A stretch of DNA of 64,000 nt from positions 186,001-250,000 of the forward strand of contig JAMDHS010000003.1 in NCBI GenBank assembly GCA_029717555.1. The letters are read 5' to 3'. Position 1 is the first letter of the stretch. Each line of letters starts with the position of its first letter. Shown here in pieces: positions 54,720-62,615 of this stretch. The stretch is from Peribolospora baueri. Taxonomy: Eukaryota; Basidiomycota; Peribolosporomycetes; Peribolosporales; Peribolosporaceae. The notes below the pieces were generated by a model. It had not been told where the DNA came from and ran no database searches. It was given only the letters and a program-made list of their open reading frames with translations. The position numbers were made by a program, and so were the translations under genes.

Positions 54720-57700
54720 TCACTCCCGCTCAGCCTCAACGTCCACCACTTTTACTTCCGAGGAGCTCGTCTCCTCTACTTTCCCCTCCTTCAGGCTCAC
54801 GTCCGCGTCCCCTTCCTTTATGCCCAGATTCGCCGTCTGCTTCTCCAGGTCGCTTTCCTCTCCCTTCTCCGCCGTCCTGACCGCACCTCTACCTCCGTGT
54901 TCCGGCAGCACCGCGATATCCTGATCCGGCTCGTACGCCTTATCCTCCCACCAGCCCTCCCTCCGCATCCCCTCCTGGGGCCAAACCATGTTCAACGCCC
55001 AGTAGACGATCGCGCTCACCCCGAAGCCGAGGAAGAACGACAGCGTGTACATCCGCTGCGCCGTCAACGGCACCGTGCGGCCCACGGCGCCGGCGAAGCC
55101 GACGATGTTGATGGCGATGCCCGAGATGTAGGCGACGTAGGCTCGCAGGTTGATGCCTGCGAAGAAGAAGTAGGTAGAGTTGCGCGAGGTAGTGTAGAGG
55201 GAAGGTACGTCCAGGTGGCCTCGGCGGATGACGTAGTAGTCCGTCACCATTACCTGCGCGCATGCAGAGCGGAACGAAGGCGAGACGGACAGGATGCAAG
55301 CAGTGGAGGAAGAATTGGTCAGTGCGGGTTCGGAGGGCCAGCGGGGATAAATGAGTGAACCCGCTTCCTTGAAACAGTGCGACTAAATATGAGAACTCAC
55401 TCCGATCTGGACAGGGATGGGACGGGCGAGAAGGACAGCAAGATGCAAGCGGAGACTCAGTCTCCAAAAGGACGCGGTAGTCACAATGGCTGATGATTAG
55501 CTGGCGAACACTTACAACACCTGACGGAAAAAGAGGAGAAAGGGCCGAGAAGAACGCATAAGAGAGATCAGGGCGCTTGGTCTCGGCTTCGTTACGGTAC
55601 GACGTCCCCGTCACTCACTGGACAGGAAGACGCTGTAGCTGCTGAGATACGAGGTGAAGCTGTTGGAGCTTGCGACGAGGTTCCAGGCTGGACACGGTTT
55701 CAGCGGGCAGCGAATGTTGTGAGTTCCGGGGGGCAACAGTCAGGGACCACGGGCATCACACTCACGGCACATGCAAAGGCCAACGATGGCCGCGATGTAG
55801 CCTCCTCGACGGATGTTGACGAAGCGGGGTAGGAGGGCCTGACGAGCGAGATCAGGTTGAGCCAAGGCAAGCTCGAAGGTCAAAGGAATGGTCTCTGGCT
55901 ACACGCAGTTTCGTGGTAGCAGTCCGGACCAACTCACCGTGAGGTCGCTGTTGCAGTAGGAACCGGACGTCCGAACACGTTCGCGTCAGTGCATCCATCA
56001 GAAAGGGTACGTGTGCGAGGGAAAATCGCAGACGACGAAGGGGCCCCACACACCTGCCAGCGGATATGGAGTTTGCTGCAATGTTGACGCCTATTTGGGC
56101 CAGGACGAAAGCGGTCGAGATGCTTCAAGGAGCGAGCAAGGGGAGTGGTTTGCATACGAGACAGAACGACGGTGCAAGGTAGACGGAGAACGGATGACGG
56201 GGAATGAGCGTTAACGTCTACCTAGCCCAAAAGCGGCTTGGCAAGCGGAAGTGTCTTCCATGAAATACAACAACAATGTGAATGCACCAGGAACACTCAC
56301 AAGAAGACGCCGCATCGGGCTTTCGAATTGTACGGGTCGTCGTCCAGTCTTGAAGGGCAAGGTAGAACAGGAACGGGTCAGGCGAGAGGAGAGCATTTGG
56401 CAGAACGAGGGAGGGGAGAGTCAGCTTGGTATCTCTCTGACATCGGAACAGAATACAAACCAGGACGCGAGAAGATAGGAAGCACCGGTCCACGAAGAAA
56501 GAACGCACTCACTTTCTTCCGAGGAGTTCCAGAGGGCTCCAGATGTTCTCTCCGTAAATGGTCGTGGCGGAGGAGGAGACGATGATTCCTGCGATCGAGC
56601 ACGAGCATGTGAGTCGCAAGATCCTGGGTGCCCGAGCAAGAACCCAAAGTTCACGAAGGACGGCCCAAGCTCGCTCCGCTCACCGACGAAGGTGGTCAAG
56701 CTGAAGGTGACGGGAATGGAGATAAGCTGTGAGGCGACCATGTCCTTAGGCCGTGTGGCGAAGCGTGTGAAGTCTGTCCGCCCATTAGGAAGTGCGTCCA
56801 TGGCAGAAGAGGAGGGACAATAGACCAACGGGACGAGAGGATACGACGTCAATAAACCGAAGCTGGAACGGACGGAGGGACATGCAGAAGAGAAGTCGGC
56901 ACTTTCATCGATTAGAGAACATTTCCAGCATCTCACCTGGCGCATTGGTAGCAAGCGTAGCAAAGTTGGAAATGCAGCTCATGACGGAGCTAACGAATTG
57001 CCAAGCGAGCTCATTGCCCTTTATGGTGGCGGGCTGTTTGACGATGGGACCCACGCCGTGAGCGTCTGCAATGGACCAGGCGAAAAAGGCCACTGCTGCT
57101 ACGGGTACCACGATCGTCTTGACCATGAAGAAATGACGGATTTGGTGTACCGGGAACCAGATCGCTGGGAGGGAGACGAGCCAGAAAAGGAAGAAGCCGA
57201 CCTTAATGTGATCGGGAGATGAAGTCGACGTCAGTGGTAGGTGGCGCTCGCCGATGTACGTTGGACGACATGGATGGCTCACAAAATCCCTGGTGTTCGT
57301 CCCACTAGAAATGGGCATGGTATTGGGCAGACGGTTGAAGCTCGGCCAGATGGAGCGGAGCACCAATGTCATACATTGGCCACCGATCCACGATTGCACT
57401 CCATACCAGCTATCGAAGGGCAGGGGTAGAGTGGCGAGAAAGAAGGAAGTCGTACATTGGCAATTAATCAATTGGTCCGGTTAAGTGGACCGCTCAGGGC
57501 ATGATGTGCTAGCCAGAGTGAAGAGTAAAAAACACGTGTACTCACATGCAAGCCATGGCAGCCCTATTCAGAACGGGCCAAAGCGCGCCCCAGATTCCGA
57601 AAGATGAGCGGATTTGAACTGGGAAGCCTACGTGCCAAACTGCGCCCGGTCGTCCGTTGGCGATCACAAACCAGCTGACAATGGTGTAGCCTACAATGAC

Positions 57701-58370
57701 GGCGAGCCATGCTTGCCACCAGGACTATGGGTGACCAGAAAAAAGAGAGGACGTGATGAACGAAGGTGAGCAGATTGAGGACGTTGAGAGCCAGCGTGGT
57801 CGTGAAGATGCATGCGTTGAAGGGAAGATGACACCAACCATTCCGGCCTGAATCATGCTGCTAGAGATCATCCTGTGAGGAACAGAAAATATTCAGAGCA
57901 ATAATTCCTGGTCAGTCGTCCGGTTGCCATTCAACCCCGAAGAAAGCGTCTTGAGCAAATGCGGGGAAAGCGCGTGAGACCATAGCCTCTCGCTCCTCCG
58001 TCGCCCTTTTCCGTGGCGGAAACAACGGACTCGTCGCCCGAGGACGAGAAAAAAAGACTTGCCAAGTGTTGATGTTGAAAGAATCTGACACCCAGAAGAA
58101 GACTGCATGGTAGACACAGACAGGCAAGGAACGTTCGGTCGACGGAGGGCCTTGGGACGTGTCGGCACAAAACCCCTGCACCTGCCAGTCGCCGTGGGGC
58201 CTCGACCACCCACCAAAGCTCCTCGCACTCCACTTCCTGCGTCCCTTCTCGACGGGCAGGAGGTCATGGTTGGCGAGCAAGAGCCGATTCCGAGAGAGAC
58301 CTTGAGACCCCGGCACGGAGACGAAGTCGAGGACCTTTTGGGCCGGTTCGCGAAAGGTAAAGGTCGGCAT
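54720..58370 (-). CDS. NCS1 family (Fur/Dal4-type) nucleobase or allantoin/hydantoin permease
   Basis: Proton-coupled importer with about 12 membrane spans. Minus-strand segments in order: MPTFTFREPAQKVLDFVSVP (58370), LSRNRLLLANHDLLPVEK, FWVSDSFNINTW, GAVWHVGFPVQIRSSFGIWG, LNRAAMACVWYGVQSWIGGQ, LPAIWFPVHQIRHFFMVKTI, SCISNFATLATNAPDFTRFA, ISIPVTFSLTTFVGIIVSSS, ACQAAFGLAQIGVNIAANSI, SAGCDLTALLPRFVNIRRGG, YIAAIVGLCMCPWNLVASSN, LSSYSVFLSSVSGVMVTDYY, VIRRGHLDVPSLY, and an acidic tail ending at 54722-54720. The NHDLLPV, QSWIGGQ, NxATxAxNAPDFTR, GxNIAANSISAGxD and PWN motifs identify the Fur group (uracil, uridine, allantoin). The substrate cannot be read directly; the divergent hydantoin racemase suggests a hydantoin or ureide. 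At least ten introns, with borders not all checked. Confidence 0.88.
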
Positions 58371-59197
58371 TCTGAAAAAGGGGGGAAACGGGATAGAGAA
58401 GGAAAAAGGCGGGAGGACAGGAGGAGGAGGGAAGGAGGATGGGCCGAGGTGAGAAACTGGCCTTGGTGGGGCCTTGCTCTGCCCTTTCTATGTGTTTGGG
58501 CTTCCCCGTCTTCCTTCCTCCTTCGTCCCTGGCCCTGACTGGGGAAGCAGCGGGACTAGACTAGATTGTTACGCATTACCCATGAAGAAGGCGGTGCGAG
58601 AGCGCCACCTGGGCGCGGACGCCATGATATCAGGTTAAGTTCGACATGGAGGGCTGACTTGACTGGCCGGCGGCAAGCGATAAGCCCTTATCGCTCGCCC
58701 TGCTGCGGCGAGAGGGGTCAGACAAGATCCGACCGAGGTAGGCGAACTCAGCTGGCACTTGATCTCATTTTGGGGTGTGCGGTCGTTTGAGGACGGTCGC
58801 TGCCCAGCCATGGTGAGGAACGAGGGCGGAGCAGGTGATCACTCTCTTGCACTCTTTGTTCTCTTTCTTGCCTTTACTTGCGTCGCTTCTTCAGTCTCGA
58901 GTACCCAGCGGCGCAACCCTCTCGGAAGGGGGGAAAGAGGGTGGGGACAGTAAAGGCGGAAGAAGATGCCGATGGCGTGGGTCTTCGCATTTGCGACGAC
59001 CCTTTAGAGGCCGCCGTAAACATGAGACGGTCTTGCTTAACGCCTTCCTTCTCCCTCCCTGGCGCACCAAGTGAGTTCAGGAGCAGACCCGCCCTCCAGT
59101 CTCCTCGCTAAGACCACCCCGGAACAACGGGCAAGCAGACCAGCAACTCGCTCTGCTCTTCCAGTCGACTACCCCACCACAATCGCAGACCTATGCC
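58371..59197. promoter_or_regulatory. Divergent promoter of the NCS1 permease and DCG1-like racemase
   Basis: An 827-bp shared upstream region. It carries the palindromic GATA site at 58676-58695. A well-formed intron (GTGAGT at 59071, CCAG ending 59164) sits just before the racemase ATG. It is not in coding phase with that ATG, so it probably lies in the 5' UTR. Confidence 0.65.
58676..58695. promoter_or_regulatory. Palindromic double GATA site (GATAAG / CTTATC)
   Basis: The two 9-bp arms AGCGATAAG and CTTATCGCT are perfect reverse complements separated by CC. Each holds a full GATAAG, the consensus for fungal nitrogen-catabolite GATA activators (AreA, Gln3 and Nit2 class). I saw no other full GATAAG in this promoter. 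It lies about 310 bp from the permease ATG and 500 bp from the racemase ATG. Confidence 0.7.
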
Positions 59198-60166
59198 ATG
59201 CATCACATCCTCTTCATAAACCCCAACTCGTCCGCTTCGCTCACCCAGGAGCTCGAGCGCAACCTCAAATCTCCAAAGCTCGGCCTGACAGCGACGACGC
59301 GCGCGGAGGACGTGGAAATAGACTTCTACACCGCTCCCGCGCCTTCGCCTTCTAGCATTGATGGGCCCGAGCAAGCGGAAAAGAGCTCCGACGTCGTCTT
59401 GGCCGCTTTCGGATTCGCGACCAGCGCAAGCGACGGTGAAGACGGCACCATGACGGTCATCGACGGCGTCCGAATCGCCCAAGCCCAGCTTCCCCGCCCA
59501 CTGAGGGAGTACGAAGCGATCATAGTCGCCTGCTACTCTCCTCACCCACTCGTCCCTTCTTTGCGCTCCCGTCTTTCGTCCCCGTCAGCCGCCCCGCCAG
59601 TGCGCGTCCCGCACGTCCTGGGCATCTTCGAATCCTCTATCGGCGCGGCCTTGCGATCGGGAGGGACGTTTGGCATCGTAACTACCGGCAAGCAATGGGA
59701 GCCTGTGCTGCTCGACGGCGCGCGGAAGGTTATGACGGACATGGGAGCGACGGCGTCGGATGGGAGCAAGGCCGGATGCGTGGGCGTGAGAGGCAGTGGA
59801 GTGGGAGTGCTGGATCTGGTGTCCGACGAGGCGGAGCCGGCAGACTCGGACAGCCAGACTGAACAGGGACGGAACCCGTCTTTACCCGGTAGCACCGACG
59901 TACGCCCACCGACGTCGATGCTGACCGCCTCGCTCGACCTCGTCCTGCATGCGCATGCAGAGGTCATCGTCGTAGGCTGTGCCGGCATGTCTCCCGTCGC
60001 CGAGCCTCTGGAGAAGGCCATCCAGTCTTCCCTTCAGGACGCAAGTCAAGACAATGCGCGCGATGAGAGAGGCGGAGGCGAGCCGCGCCGCGTACCGGTC
60101 GTGGACGGGGTCAAGGCGGCGATCGAGTGGGCGGTCGAGTTGGTAAAGGGAGAGGAGAGTAAGTAG
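59198..60166 (+). CDS. DCG1: Asp/Glu/hydantoin racemase family protein (Dcg1-like)
   Basis: 322 residues from one coding exon, beginning MHHILFINPNSSASLTQEL. INPNSS is the signature of the hydantoin-racemase branch. The two catalytic cysteines of this two-base racemase family are present: Cys112 in IIVACYSPHPL and Cys261 in VIVVGCAGMSP. Between them, FESSIGAALRSGGTFGIVTT and GKQWEP form the substrate-loop region. The protein is longer than the 240 or so residues typical, because of Ser/Pro-rich insertions near 45-65 and 205-240. Yeast DCG1 lies in the DAL allantoin cluster and is nitrogen-repressed but has no proven reaction. Here it faces a Fur-type permease across a GATA-site promoter, supporting a role in hydantoin, allantoin or related ureide use. 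Confidence 0.92.
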   Translation: MHHILFINPNSSASLTQELERNLKSPKLGLTATTRAEDVEIDFYTAPAPSPSSIDGPEQAEKSSDVVLAAFGFATSASDGEDGTMTVIDGVRIAQAQLPRPLREYEAIIVACYSPHPLVPSLRSRLSSPSAAPPVRVPHVLGIFESSIGAALRSGGTFGIVTTGKQWEPVLLDGARKVMTDMGATASDGSKAGCVGVRGSGVGVLDLVSDEAEPADSDSQTEQGRNPSLPGSTDVRPPTSMLTASLDLVLHAHAEVIVVGCAGMSPVAEPLEKAIQSSLQDASQDNARDERGGGEPRRVPVVDGVKAAIEWAVELVKGEESK

Positions 60167-60593: not shown

Positions 60594-61786
60594 TCAAATC
60601 TTGGGCTCCCAAGAAACACCGCAGCCGCACCCAGATCCTTTGGCCTGAGGGTTATTTCGAATGACGAACTGGGATCCGATGAGCTCTGTCACAAAATCTA
60701 TCGTGGAGCCCTTAATGAGGTTGAGAGAGATGCTGTCCACTAGGAGGGTCGCGGAGGGTGGTTGGGACTCGGTGGAGAGGCTGGCGGTAAAGGCGCTATC
60801 AGGGAGGATGGGAACAAGGGGTCAGGAATTCAAGTCGTTCATAGACTCAACAAATATTGACGCACGGACGATGTGGCAAGCTGTCCCTATGAAAAAATAG
60901 AACTAGACACGAGCTCGTTCAACTCACAAATCATCCTTCTCCTGGTCCGCGGTGTCGGCCAGCTCCATCTTGTACTGGTAACCGTGACATCCTCCAGGCT
61001 CTACGGCGATGCGAAGAGCCAGATTGGGGTTTTGTTCTCGAGTGGAAACGGCTGCCAGCCGCTTTTATAGCGGTGGTGGAGGTGCGCACGAAAGGAGGGA
61101 GGGAAAGACGAGTTGCAGGAACAGTTAGGAGCGAAGGAGGGCCGAAATGGAACATGTCGTTCAGTCAGCGCCTGAGAGATCCGTACGCAGGCACGTACGC
61201 AAAGGCGCACTCGGAGCCATTGGAACACTAGCATAAGTGACAAACTCACCTCCACAGCCCGTTCGGTAAGGATGACGCTCGGCTCCCCATCGCCTTCGTA
61301 AACCTCCGGCTCCTCCGGTTCCGAAGGCGCAGAGACGAGCCTGACTGTGGGGAGCGGCGGTACTTGCGGCGAGGAGGAGAGAGGAGTCTCCTGCGGAGCG
61401 GAGGCGCTGGGGATGGGGTTAGCCGTCATGGCGTAGGTTCGCCGTCCACGGTGGCGCATGCAGGACGCAAAGTCGTGAATGGAGGCGGGTACGACCCTCG
61501 TCCTCGCCCTCGTGCCCGGTGCGAAGCTGCCAAGAGACGTCGTGGCATCGGCCTGTTGACCATACAGGCGTCCGAAAGGAATGCGTTCGCTTCCGGCATC
61601 GTTGTGAGCGTCGTGGCGGGTGAGAGAATGCAAACACCGAGAGGAAACAGTGGAGACGATTGGACTGGCGCCACCGTCACCGCCACGATCGCCGGGGCGG
61701 GAGAGACTGGACTGGAGGGCGCGAGCGGCTCGCCTCGCCGCTGTGAGAGCAACTAATGGACGAGAAGAGGCGAGATGGGCTGACAT
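60594..61786 (-). CDS. ISA2: Mitochondrial iron-sulfur assembly protein Isa2
   Basis: A-type scaffold/carrier of the mitochondrial ISC pathway, which with Isa1 and Iba57 makes [4Fe-4S] clusters. Three exons on the minus strand: 61786-61250, 61061-60928, 60795-60594; 290 residues. The first 120 or so residues are Arg/Ser/Ala-rich with few acids (MSAHLASSRPLVALTAARRA), a mitochondrial presequence plus linker. The domain begins PSVILTERAVERLAAV and continues NPNLALRIAVEPGGCHGYQY, KMELADTADQEKDDFAF, LLVDSISLNLIKGSTIDFVT, ELIGSQFVIRNNPQAKGSG and CGCGVSWEPKI. The three ligand cysteines (GGCHGY and GCGCG) are intact. GCHGYQY marks Isa2 rather than Isa1. Confidence 0.95.
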
Positions 61787-62615
61787 GATCAACCTCAGCA
61801 GATCTGTGGCGAGTGAGACGAAGGAAAGAGAGGGGATGATATCCGTGAGCGTCCAGCCGGGGACGTTCGCGAGAGCGAGCCAGCTCGATCACGCGGCGTT
61901 TAGTGGAGATAGCGGTGGTTGGGCAGTCGGATGCAGGTGAACGGGCACGTGCACGGGCAACCATTTGCCATCCACAGTTGGATGTTTGTCACTCCTGCTG
62001 TCTGCCTCTCCCATCTCCTCTCTAACGTGGGCGATGCTAGCTTTGCCAGGGAGGCTCGTGAAGAGCATGGCAGCAGTACGGGACAGAAGAGATCGCATAT
62101 TGCTTTGCGTGGGAATGCTGACGATGGAATGAGACCCCCTCATGTCTTTTCTCCAAAGTCCCTGTCATCCCCGTTTGTCCAGCCGCGCGTCCATCCAGTT
62201 CTCCAGGTCCTGGGCTTTGAAAATTGTTTGTCGCCGGTCGAGCTGGGTGCGTTTTGCTATGTTTTCACGTTGTCGCCGTTTGGGCAGCGCGTCGGGCAGT
62301 TCGACCAGGATCGCGCTGGCGCACGTATAAAGTCAGGGTCCAGTCCGATCCCTTTCAAGCACGCTTCTCACACGACCCATCCACTCCCCTTTCCCTTCCT
62401 CGGGTCTTTTCTCTTTCTTGTTCCTATTCCCCCTTTCGCTTGCTCTTTTTACTTTCCTTCCTGGTAGCGCGCACAGCCGTCACGCTCGAGGGGAAACCAA
62501 CTTCGCTTTAAAACTCGTTGCACTTGGGCCTACCGCTTGGCCGCTTCGACTGAGCTTTCTCGCCTAAAGCCGATTTGCTTCTGTGCAGCCAGTTTCTTCA
62601 AGGGACCCACCGATC
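61787..62615. promoter_or_regulatory. Divergent intergenic region of ISA2 and the F-box-like gene
   Basis: 829 bp between divergent starts. CT-rich runs at 62380-62460 lead into the F-box-like gene. Frames across it are open but of mixed composition, and no gene is supported. Confidence 0.4.

Follow-up and report, generated by a model that had tools for sequence, protein, structure and literature searches.

A head-to-head Fur-type permease and racemase gene pair in the basidiomycete Peribolospora baueri as a candidate unit for allantoin scavenging

In the basidiomycete Peribolospora baueri, a Fur-type NCS1 permease gene and a gene for a racemase of the Asp/Glu/hydantoin family (Dcg1/AllR-like) stand head to head, and we believe, with confidence somewhat better than even, that together they form a unit for allantoin import and racemisation, that is, for scavenging. 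The pair lies in a window of 64,000 nucleotides, the whole stretch of DNA that was analysed (G000:C112:186001-250000, from a genome whose 178 contigs total 22.1 Mb and whose intron-rich genes and gene content are in keeping with a fungus); positions without a prefix are in window numbering. The racemase coding sequence (59198-60166, plus strand) is intronless and specifies 322 amino acids plus stop, the permease gene (54720-58370, minus strand) is a 16-exon splice model of 593 amino acids, and the two ATGs face each other across a shared intergenic region of 827 bp (58371-59197), a layout that a preliminary description of this DNA had already proposed. Both genes, their families, their geometry, their active-site residues, a rare palindrome between them and matches to pathway genes elsewhere in the genome are direct observations. 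By means of the pair, the fungus probably uses both mirror forms of allantoin as a nitrogen source.

The substrate, the direction of flux and the joint regulation of the pair, as we infer them, can be put as follows. Extracellular allantoin is largely racemic, and allantoinase is (S)-specific. The permease would import allantoin, and perhaps uric acid or uracil as well, by proton symport. The racemase would interconvert (R)- and (S)-allantoin, with Cys112 and Cys261 serving as a two-base acid/base pair, one for each face of allantoin C5, and the allantoinase encoded on another contig would then drain the whole allantoin pool to allantoate, ureidoglycolate and urea. Through the palindromic double GATAAG in their shared promoter, the two genes would be induced jointly whenever good nitrogen is lacking.

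The case for allantoin begins with the racemase. Its frame, one codon longer than the coding sequence, matches PF01177 with an E value of 5.4e-28 and 98.7 bits against a cut-off of 31, and the joined permease model matches the NCBIfam model TIGR00800 (ncs1) at 484.9 bits against a cut-off of 353.1; the racemase and NCS1 families first proposed for the two genes are confirmed. The racemase is the sole PF01177 gene found in the genome. It has cysteines at positions 112, 194 and 261, and translation of the coding sequence agrees with the earlier numbering of the predicted catalytic residues, Cys112 (codon 59531-59533, plus strand, motif IVACYSPHPL) and Cys261 (codon 59978-59980, plus strand, motif VVGCAGM). 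Because a direct phmmer search of the PDB sequences was empty even at an E value of 10, a bacterial racemase encoded beside NCS1 genes on a Peribacillus plasmid was used as a bridge. This protein matches the Klebsiella pneumoniae allantoin racemase (KpAllR) with an E value of 1.1e-62, its next PDB matches being the Pseudomonas fluorescens allantoin racemase (PfAllR), the Pyrococcus horikoshii hydantoin racemase and the fungal epimerase OpaE. Relatives were also sought on plasmids, where tblastn was empty at an E value of 1e-3, and among viral contigs scanned with racemase and permease patterns, where none appeared.

The window protein was then aligned with the best 80 of 124 bacterial relatives, the Peribacillus protein and two PDB chains. 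Both predicted catalytic cysteine columns are kept in 80 of the 80 bacterial relatives, and the pair aligns with the two cysteines of KpAllR, the PfAllR chain having Gly in the first of these columns. The Asn10 column is kept in 79 of the 80. As a separate observation, the third cysteine, Cys194 (codon 59777-59779, plus strand), is also Cys in 69 of them. In the available part of a recent paper on OpaE, as in the excerpts through which all papers are cited here, Asn12, Met17, Thr118 and Thr119 of KpAllR are given as allantoin contacts, with Thr118-Thr119 touching the ureido tail (PMC12661438). By alignment, Asn12, Thr118 and Thr119 correspond to window residues Asn10, Thr162 and Thr163 (Thr codons 59681-59686, plus strand), and Met17 to Leu15. 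With the bacterial AllR/HpxA proteins (3QVJ, 5LFD) the window racemase has in common the fold and the Asn and Thr-Thr contacts, and it has the two cysteines as in KpAllR. It differs from them in sequence (25-29% identity over 219 aligned columns), in length (322 against about 245 residues; the additional stretches near 58-86 and 217-229 are of low confidence) and in having CYSPHPL where they have CFGDPGL.

When the racemase was compared by fold, allantoin racemases ranked first, with a score of 23.5 as against 18.6 for OpaE. This comparison bears on the possibility that the enzyme, like OpaE, epimerises a peptide or another secondary metabolite, with a permease that is unrelated or meant for export. 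The attraction of such a scheme is that a 2025 paper describes OpaE as the sole well-characterised fungal member of the racemase family (PMC12661438). Its fold score is lower, however, the residues at the KpAllR contact positions are reported to be hydrophobic in OpaE (same source) and are polar in the window protein, and no biosynthetic genes appeared among the Pfam matches of the flanking frames that were scanned, so that we hold this alternative to be very improbable indeed.

Matches to the other enzymes of allantoin metabolism are present on other contigs. An allantoinase match lies on C22, with no single exon attaining the model cut-off, a uricase match on C178 and a match to OHCU (2-oxo-4-hydroxy-4-carboxy-5-ureidoimidazoline) decarboxylase on C25. 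Matches for allantoicase and ureidoglycolate lyase adjoin on the same strand of C178, the lyase directly downstream (L037 3155-5300, that is, G000:C178:347654-349799), and are perhaps one fused gene; such a fusion has been reported for Cryptococcus (PMC3646786). With the pathway matches on C22, C178 and C25 and the pair on C112, the genome lacks clustering of the DAL type. The 17 frames scanned around the other NCS1 and pathway loci contained three NCS1 exons and no other match to allantoin-pathway or transporter families.

The same two gene families also meet in bacteria. An NCS1 gene was found in the flanking DNA fetched (at most 4 kb) in at least 14 of 80 bacterial racemase loci, a lower bound since 20 of the 80 have less than 8.3 kb of DNA to examine, and a count made without a matched control set. 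The linked loci comprise six from Bifidobacterium, three from Nonomuraea, one each from Mycolicibacterium, Peribacillus, Neobacillus and Aneurinibacillus, and one from a deltaproteobacterial bin, and on a quick tree the linkage label requires at least four changes. On the Peribacillus plasmid (L045) the racemase, which is of the same subfamily as the window enzyme and adjoins an NCS1 carrier as in the window, is flanked by two NCS1 genes and accompanied by hydantoinase B and a Zn hydrolase. Bacterial sets of this kind often include hydantoinase or hydrolase genes, whereas the window pair stands alone.

An NCS1 carrier beside a racemase is also what bacterial hyu clusters contain, and one may ask whether the pair serves the use of 5-substituted hydantoins, which would be imported, racemised and hydrolysed to amino acids. 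Consistent with this, Mhp1, the hydantoin carrier, is the only match of the permease among PDB sequences (E 1.3e-21), and hydantoinase, dihydropyrimidinase or Zn-hydrolase queries match in 8 of the 14 NCS1-linked loci, in addition to one plasmid. In the P. baueri genome, however, no separate D-hydantoinase or dihydropyrimidinase gene was seen, let alone one linked to the pair, because the sole TIGR03178 match other than that of allantoinase is weak and lies inside a 1470-aa frame; Hydantoinase_B matches are confined to one gene on C137, as would be expected of a single 5-oxoprolinase. Moreover, Thr162-Thr163 suits a polar allantoin pocket: Thr-Val occurs in 4 of the 14 linked loci, all four with hydantoinase or hydrolase matches, and Thr-Thr in the other 10, of which four have such matches. 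We therefore consider hydantoin use distinctly unlikely. The preliminary description had suggested that the pair takes up a hydantoin or ureide and inverts its stereochemistry. Fold rank, contact residues, pathway matches and the bacterial adjacency of NCS1 and racemase genes uphold this suggestion, within which allantoin is favoured over hydantoins at large.

As for the specificity of the permease, the Mhp1 residues Trp117, Gln121, Asn314 and Asn318 correspond to its W138, Q142, N352 and N356. At the second of these binding-site positions, Fur4 is reported to have Gln (PMC3951388) and Fui1, which carries uridine, to have Leu (PMC4195764); Gln142 is therefore like Fur4, and a uridine role is disfavoured. 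The column of Mhp1 Trp220, inferred from bacterial rows, holds Phe in the window permease and Trp in its paralogue on C55, and a Trp220-to-Phe change in Mhp1 reportedly has little effect on uptake (PMC4195764). Against two bacterial allantoin permease models the permease scored far under their cut-offs. Among fungal carriers it can be likened by motif to FurE of Aspergillus nidulans, a Fur-type NCS1 protein for uric acid, allantoin and uracil, whose N-tail motif N-X-D-Phi-X-P (PMC6597760) fits NHDLLP at permease residues 34-39.

The promoter shared by the two genes contains an inverted repeat of two GATAAG sites at 58676-58695, as had been claimed earlier. The repeat, AGCGATAAG-CC-CTTATCGCT, is separated by 305 nt from the ATG of the permease and by 502 nt from that of the racemase, its 9-nt arms are exact and its 2-nt centre is not palindromic; GATAAGNNCTTATC occurs at a single place in the 22.1-Mb genome, namely this gap. 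When the gap was shuffled with dinucleotide frequencies kept, no GATAAG pair within 30 nt arose in 500 shuffles, and inverted repeats with arms of at least 9 nt and a spacer of 0-20 nt arose in 29 of 500 (with a spacer of exactly 2 nt, in 0 of 500). By this measure it is the GATAAG content that stands out, whereas a palindrome in itself is only mildly unusual. Of background stretches, drawn from the window and L032-L040, 5.7% contain at least two GATAAG. The palindrome is real and rare; the number of GATA sites is ordinary, and it is their arrangement alone that is rare. By analogy with the basidiomycete GATA factors that govern nitrogen catabolism (PMC3314646), the palindrome may place both genes under nitrogen control.

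Several observations nevertheless weigh against allantoin scavenging, beginning with the pathway itself. OHCU decarboxylase by itself yields (S)-allantoin, so that a racemase would be needed only for allantoin that is imported or spontaneously formed. Furthermore, 63 of the 80 aligned bacterial proteins have Thr-Thr, among them those of four NCS1-linked loci with hydantoinase-like and Zn-hydrolase matches, so that this feature marks a subfamily and is no proof of allantoin. The racemase sits on a long branch (4.64) and its placement on the quick tree is insecure. An origin from one bacterial group was considered, with Chloroflexota nearest by path, but is not claimed, the branch being long and the forks weak. 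Finally, no other allantoin-pathway gene was found beside the pair among the flanking frames scanned.

Some observations count against the regulatory part as well. Two HGATAR sites in the gap is an ordinary count, since 38% of background stretches have at least two, and GATAAG is over-represented window-wide (26 against 15.3 expected, equalled in 1 of 100 shuffles). Inverted GATAAG pairs with spacers of 0-30 nt are found at 10 places in the genome, compared with 6 in a reversed control, and a genome-wide regulon signature of such pairs was accordingly rejected. Pathway promoters are not uniformly GATA-rich: the upstream stretches of about 1 kb, crudely anchored near the first domain match or modelled exon and not at mapped starts, contain three GATAAG for the NCS1 gene on C55, two for that on C7, one each for allantoinase, allantoicase and uricase and none for OHCU decarboxylase, the allantoicase stretch having 8 HGATAR. 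The purine-specific activator UaY recognises TCGG-N6-CCGA, and no site of this type was present in the shared gap or in the six pathway and paralogue upstream stretches. Another of the ten inverted pairs lies 61 kb off (L142 5173-5191, that is, G000:C112:183172-183190), beside a frame of the HSF DNA-binding type and not a nitrogen-gene match.

The permease raises a further difficulty. NCS1 matches occur at no fewer than five places in the genome, on C112 (the window gene), C55, C123, C7 and C145; the spliced models on C123 and C145 are poor and support no claim. The nearest paralogue, on C55, is identical at 352 of 574 positions (about 61%, its last small exons being doubtful) and at 65% over a trimmed core; its spurious-looking last small exons and the outer exons on C7 were trimmed by hand for the family-model, core-identity and residue comparisons and left untrimmed where the paralogue served as splice query. 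With so close a paralogue, either copy could be the uracil carrier, and the window permease, which may be of Dal4 or of Fur4 type, could carry uracil. Among plasmids, tblastn with the permease matched 221 records, all below 60% identity, and six neighbourhoods from these were examined. Those of Azoarcus (hydantoinase A and B), Leisingera (dihydropyrimidinase and Zn hydrolase), Burkholderia (dihydropyrimidinase, Zn hydrolase and preA) and Acidiphilium (dihydropyrimidinase and preA) contain pyrimidine or hydantoin enzymes, that of Streptomyces is without racemase, hydantoinase, dihydropyrimidinase, Zn hydrolase or preA, and the Peribacillus plasmid described above provides the only racemase neighbour. 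Enzymes of pyrimidine or hydantoin metabolism, including preA of uracil/thymine catabolism in two cases, are therefore commoner companions (in four neighbourhoods besides that of Peribacillus) than a racemase (one of six), which argues somewhat against allantoin.

On a rival reading, the two genes are chance neighbours, a Fur4-like permease for uracil salvage and a racemase acting separately on endogenous allantoin, between which a shared promoter means little. The Fur-type residues of the permease suit Fur4 no less than Dal4, C55 has another close copy of the Fur type, and the plasmid relatives stand beside preA in two of six cases and beside dihydropyrimidinase in three of six. However, that the only PF01177 gene found should face one of five NCS1 loci by accident is improbable in a genome of what we take to be several thousand genes, the same two families are paired repeatedly in bacteria, and a GATAAG palindrome lies between the two genes. 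Chance neighbourhood thus strikes us as rather unlikely, while remaining the chief competitor of allantoin scavenging.

Allantoin scavenging by this pair would rely on components of familiar kinds; that NCS1 carrier and racemase meet is known from yeast and seen in bacteria. The yeast DAL cluster, with DAL4 and DCG1, likewise has a Fur-type permease near a PF01177 racemase with a proposed allantoin role; the window pair differs in comprising two genes only, placed head to head, with the matches to the other enzymes on other contigs. According to one paper, DAL4 derives from a FUR4 duplication when the yeast cluster arose (PMC5611559), and the pairing in the window would therefore be independent. 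The system had at first been called poorly described, which stands only in part: the name "allantoin racemase" was given to DCG1 as early as 2013, in a paper that includes it together with DAL4 among the genes of the yeast DAL cluster and whose available part contains no test behind the label (PMC3646786), and, according to the title of reference 47 in PMC7067042, DCG1 of yeast responds to nitrogen catabolite repression. Among basidiomycetes, CNAG_01161 of Cryptococcus neoformans, likened here by description, is a Dcg1 homologue with raised expression in the VNI lineage in vivo and on pigeon guano medium (PMC7067042). In the excerpts of the literature surveyed we found no demonstration of allantoin racemase activity for a fungal enzyme, and in none of the titles and abstract openings of the open-licence papers listed is a basidiomycete described as having permease and racemase genes in divergent pairing; the excerpts of PMC8022950 likewise contained nothing on the allantoin pathway. 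If our reading is right, this would be a third setting, beside yeast and bacteria, in which NCS1 carrier and racemase meet, and the simplicity of two genes on one shared promoter opens the allantoin role of DCG1-type racemases to direct test. A bolder proposal, which we advance with considerable doubt, is that a Fur-type duplicate and a bacterial-type racemase under a palindromic double-GATA switch evolved independently of yeast and bacteria into a two-gene "mini DAL cluster" that makes racemic allantoin fully usable, its permease possibly being tuned by microexons of 5 and 6 nt.

These microexons belong to a gene model that was joined by eye and then checked with a small splice-aware aligner rewarding consensus donors. 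Four of the five first trial frames match PF02133, one of these under the curated cut-off. The predicted gene has introns of 78-190 nt, including one GC-AG intron (intron 2, 57873-58062, minus strand, GCAAGT...CAG), and three microexons with consensus donors: exon 11 of 10 nt (CGACCTCACG, 55938-55947), exon 14 of 5 nt (GTGTT, 55516-55520) and exon 15 of 6 nt (ATCGGA, 55401-55406), all on the minus strand. With the C55 paralogue as splice query, identical exons (exon 1 being shorter) were obtained in four of six aligner settings; in the remaining two, the 5- and 6-nt exons give way to one exon of 11 nt (55510-55520) whose donor is poor. Within the 365-nt stretch concerned, the 5- and 6-nt exons are the only candidates of 1-24 nt carrying one of seven listed donor hexamers, and omission of exons 14 and 15 shifts the reading frame. 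The sequence FLSSIAGVMV lies within one unbroken 347-nt exon of the C55 paralogue, whereas FLSSVIGVMV of the window gene is spread over microexons. According to the available part of a 2024 paper, functional microexons had not earlier been described in filamentous fungi (PMC11121469). Repeated, introner-like introns were considered and rejected, the 15 permease introns being without mutual likeness (blastn E up to 0.1) and matching nothing but themselves across the window plus L032-L040 (E up to 1e-3).

Six of the eight frames scanned to the left of the pair match eIF3a, PCI or ion-channel families in Pfam, the four scanned to its right inside the window have no Pfam match, and the five past the right end of the window include a SET domain, a copia-type gag and two further weak, sub-threshold matches. 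The gag frame lies about 8 kb to the right of the pair (L040 4014-4853, that is, G000:C112:254014-254853). At the racemase start, an out-of-frame ATG five bases upstream opens an 8-codon frame (59193-59219, plus strand) that overlaps the true start, and translational control by this frame is possible. Frames at 60594-61888 (minus strand), two fragments of which gave no Pfam match, converge on the racemase and end in a GCGCG motif resembling that of iron-sulphur assembly proteins.

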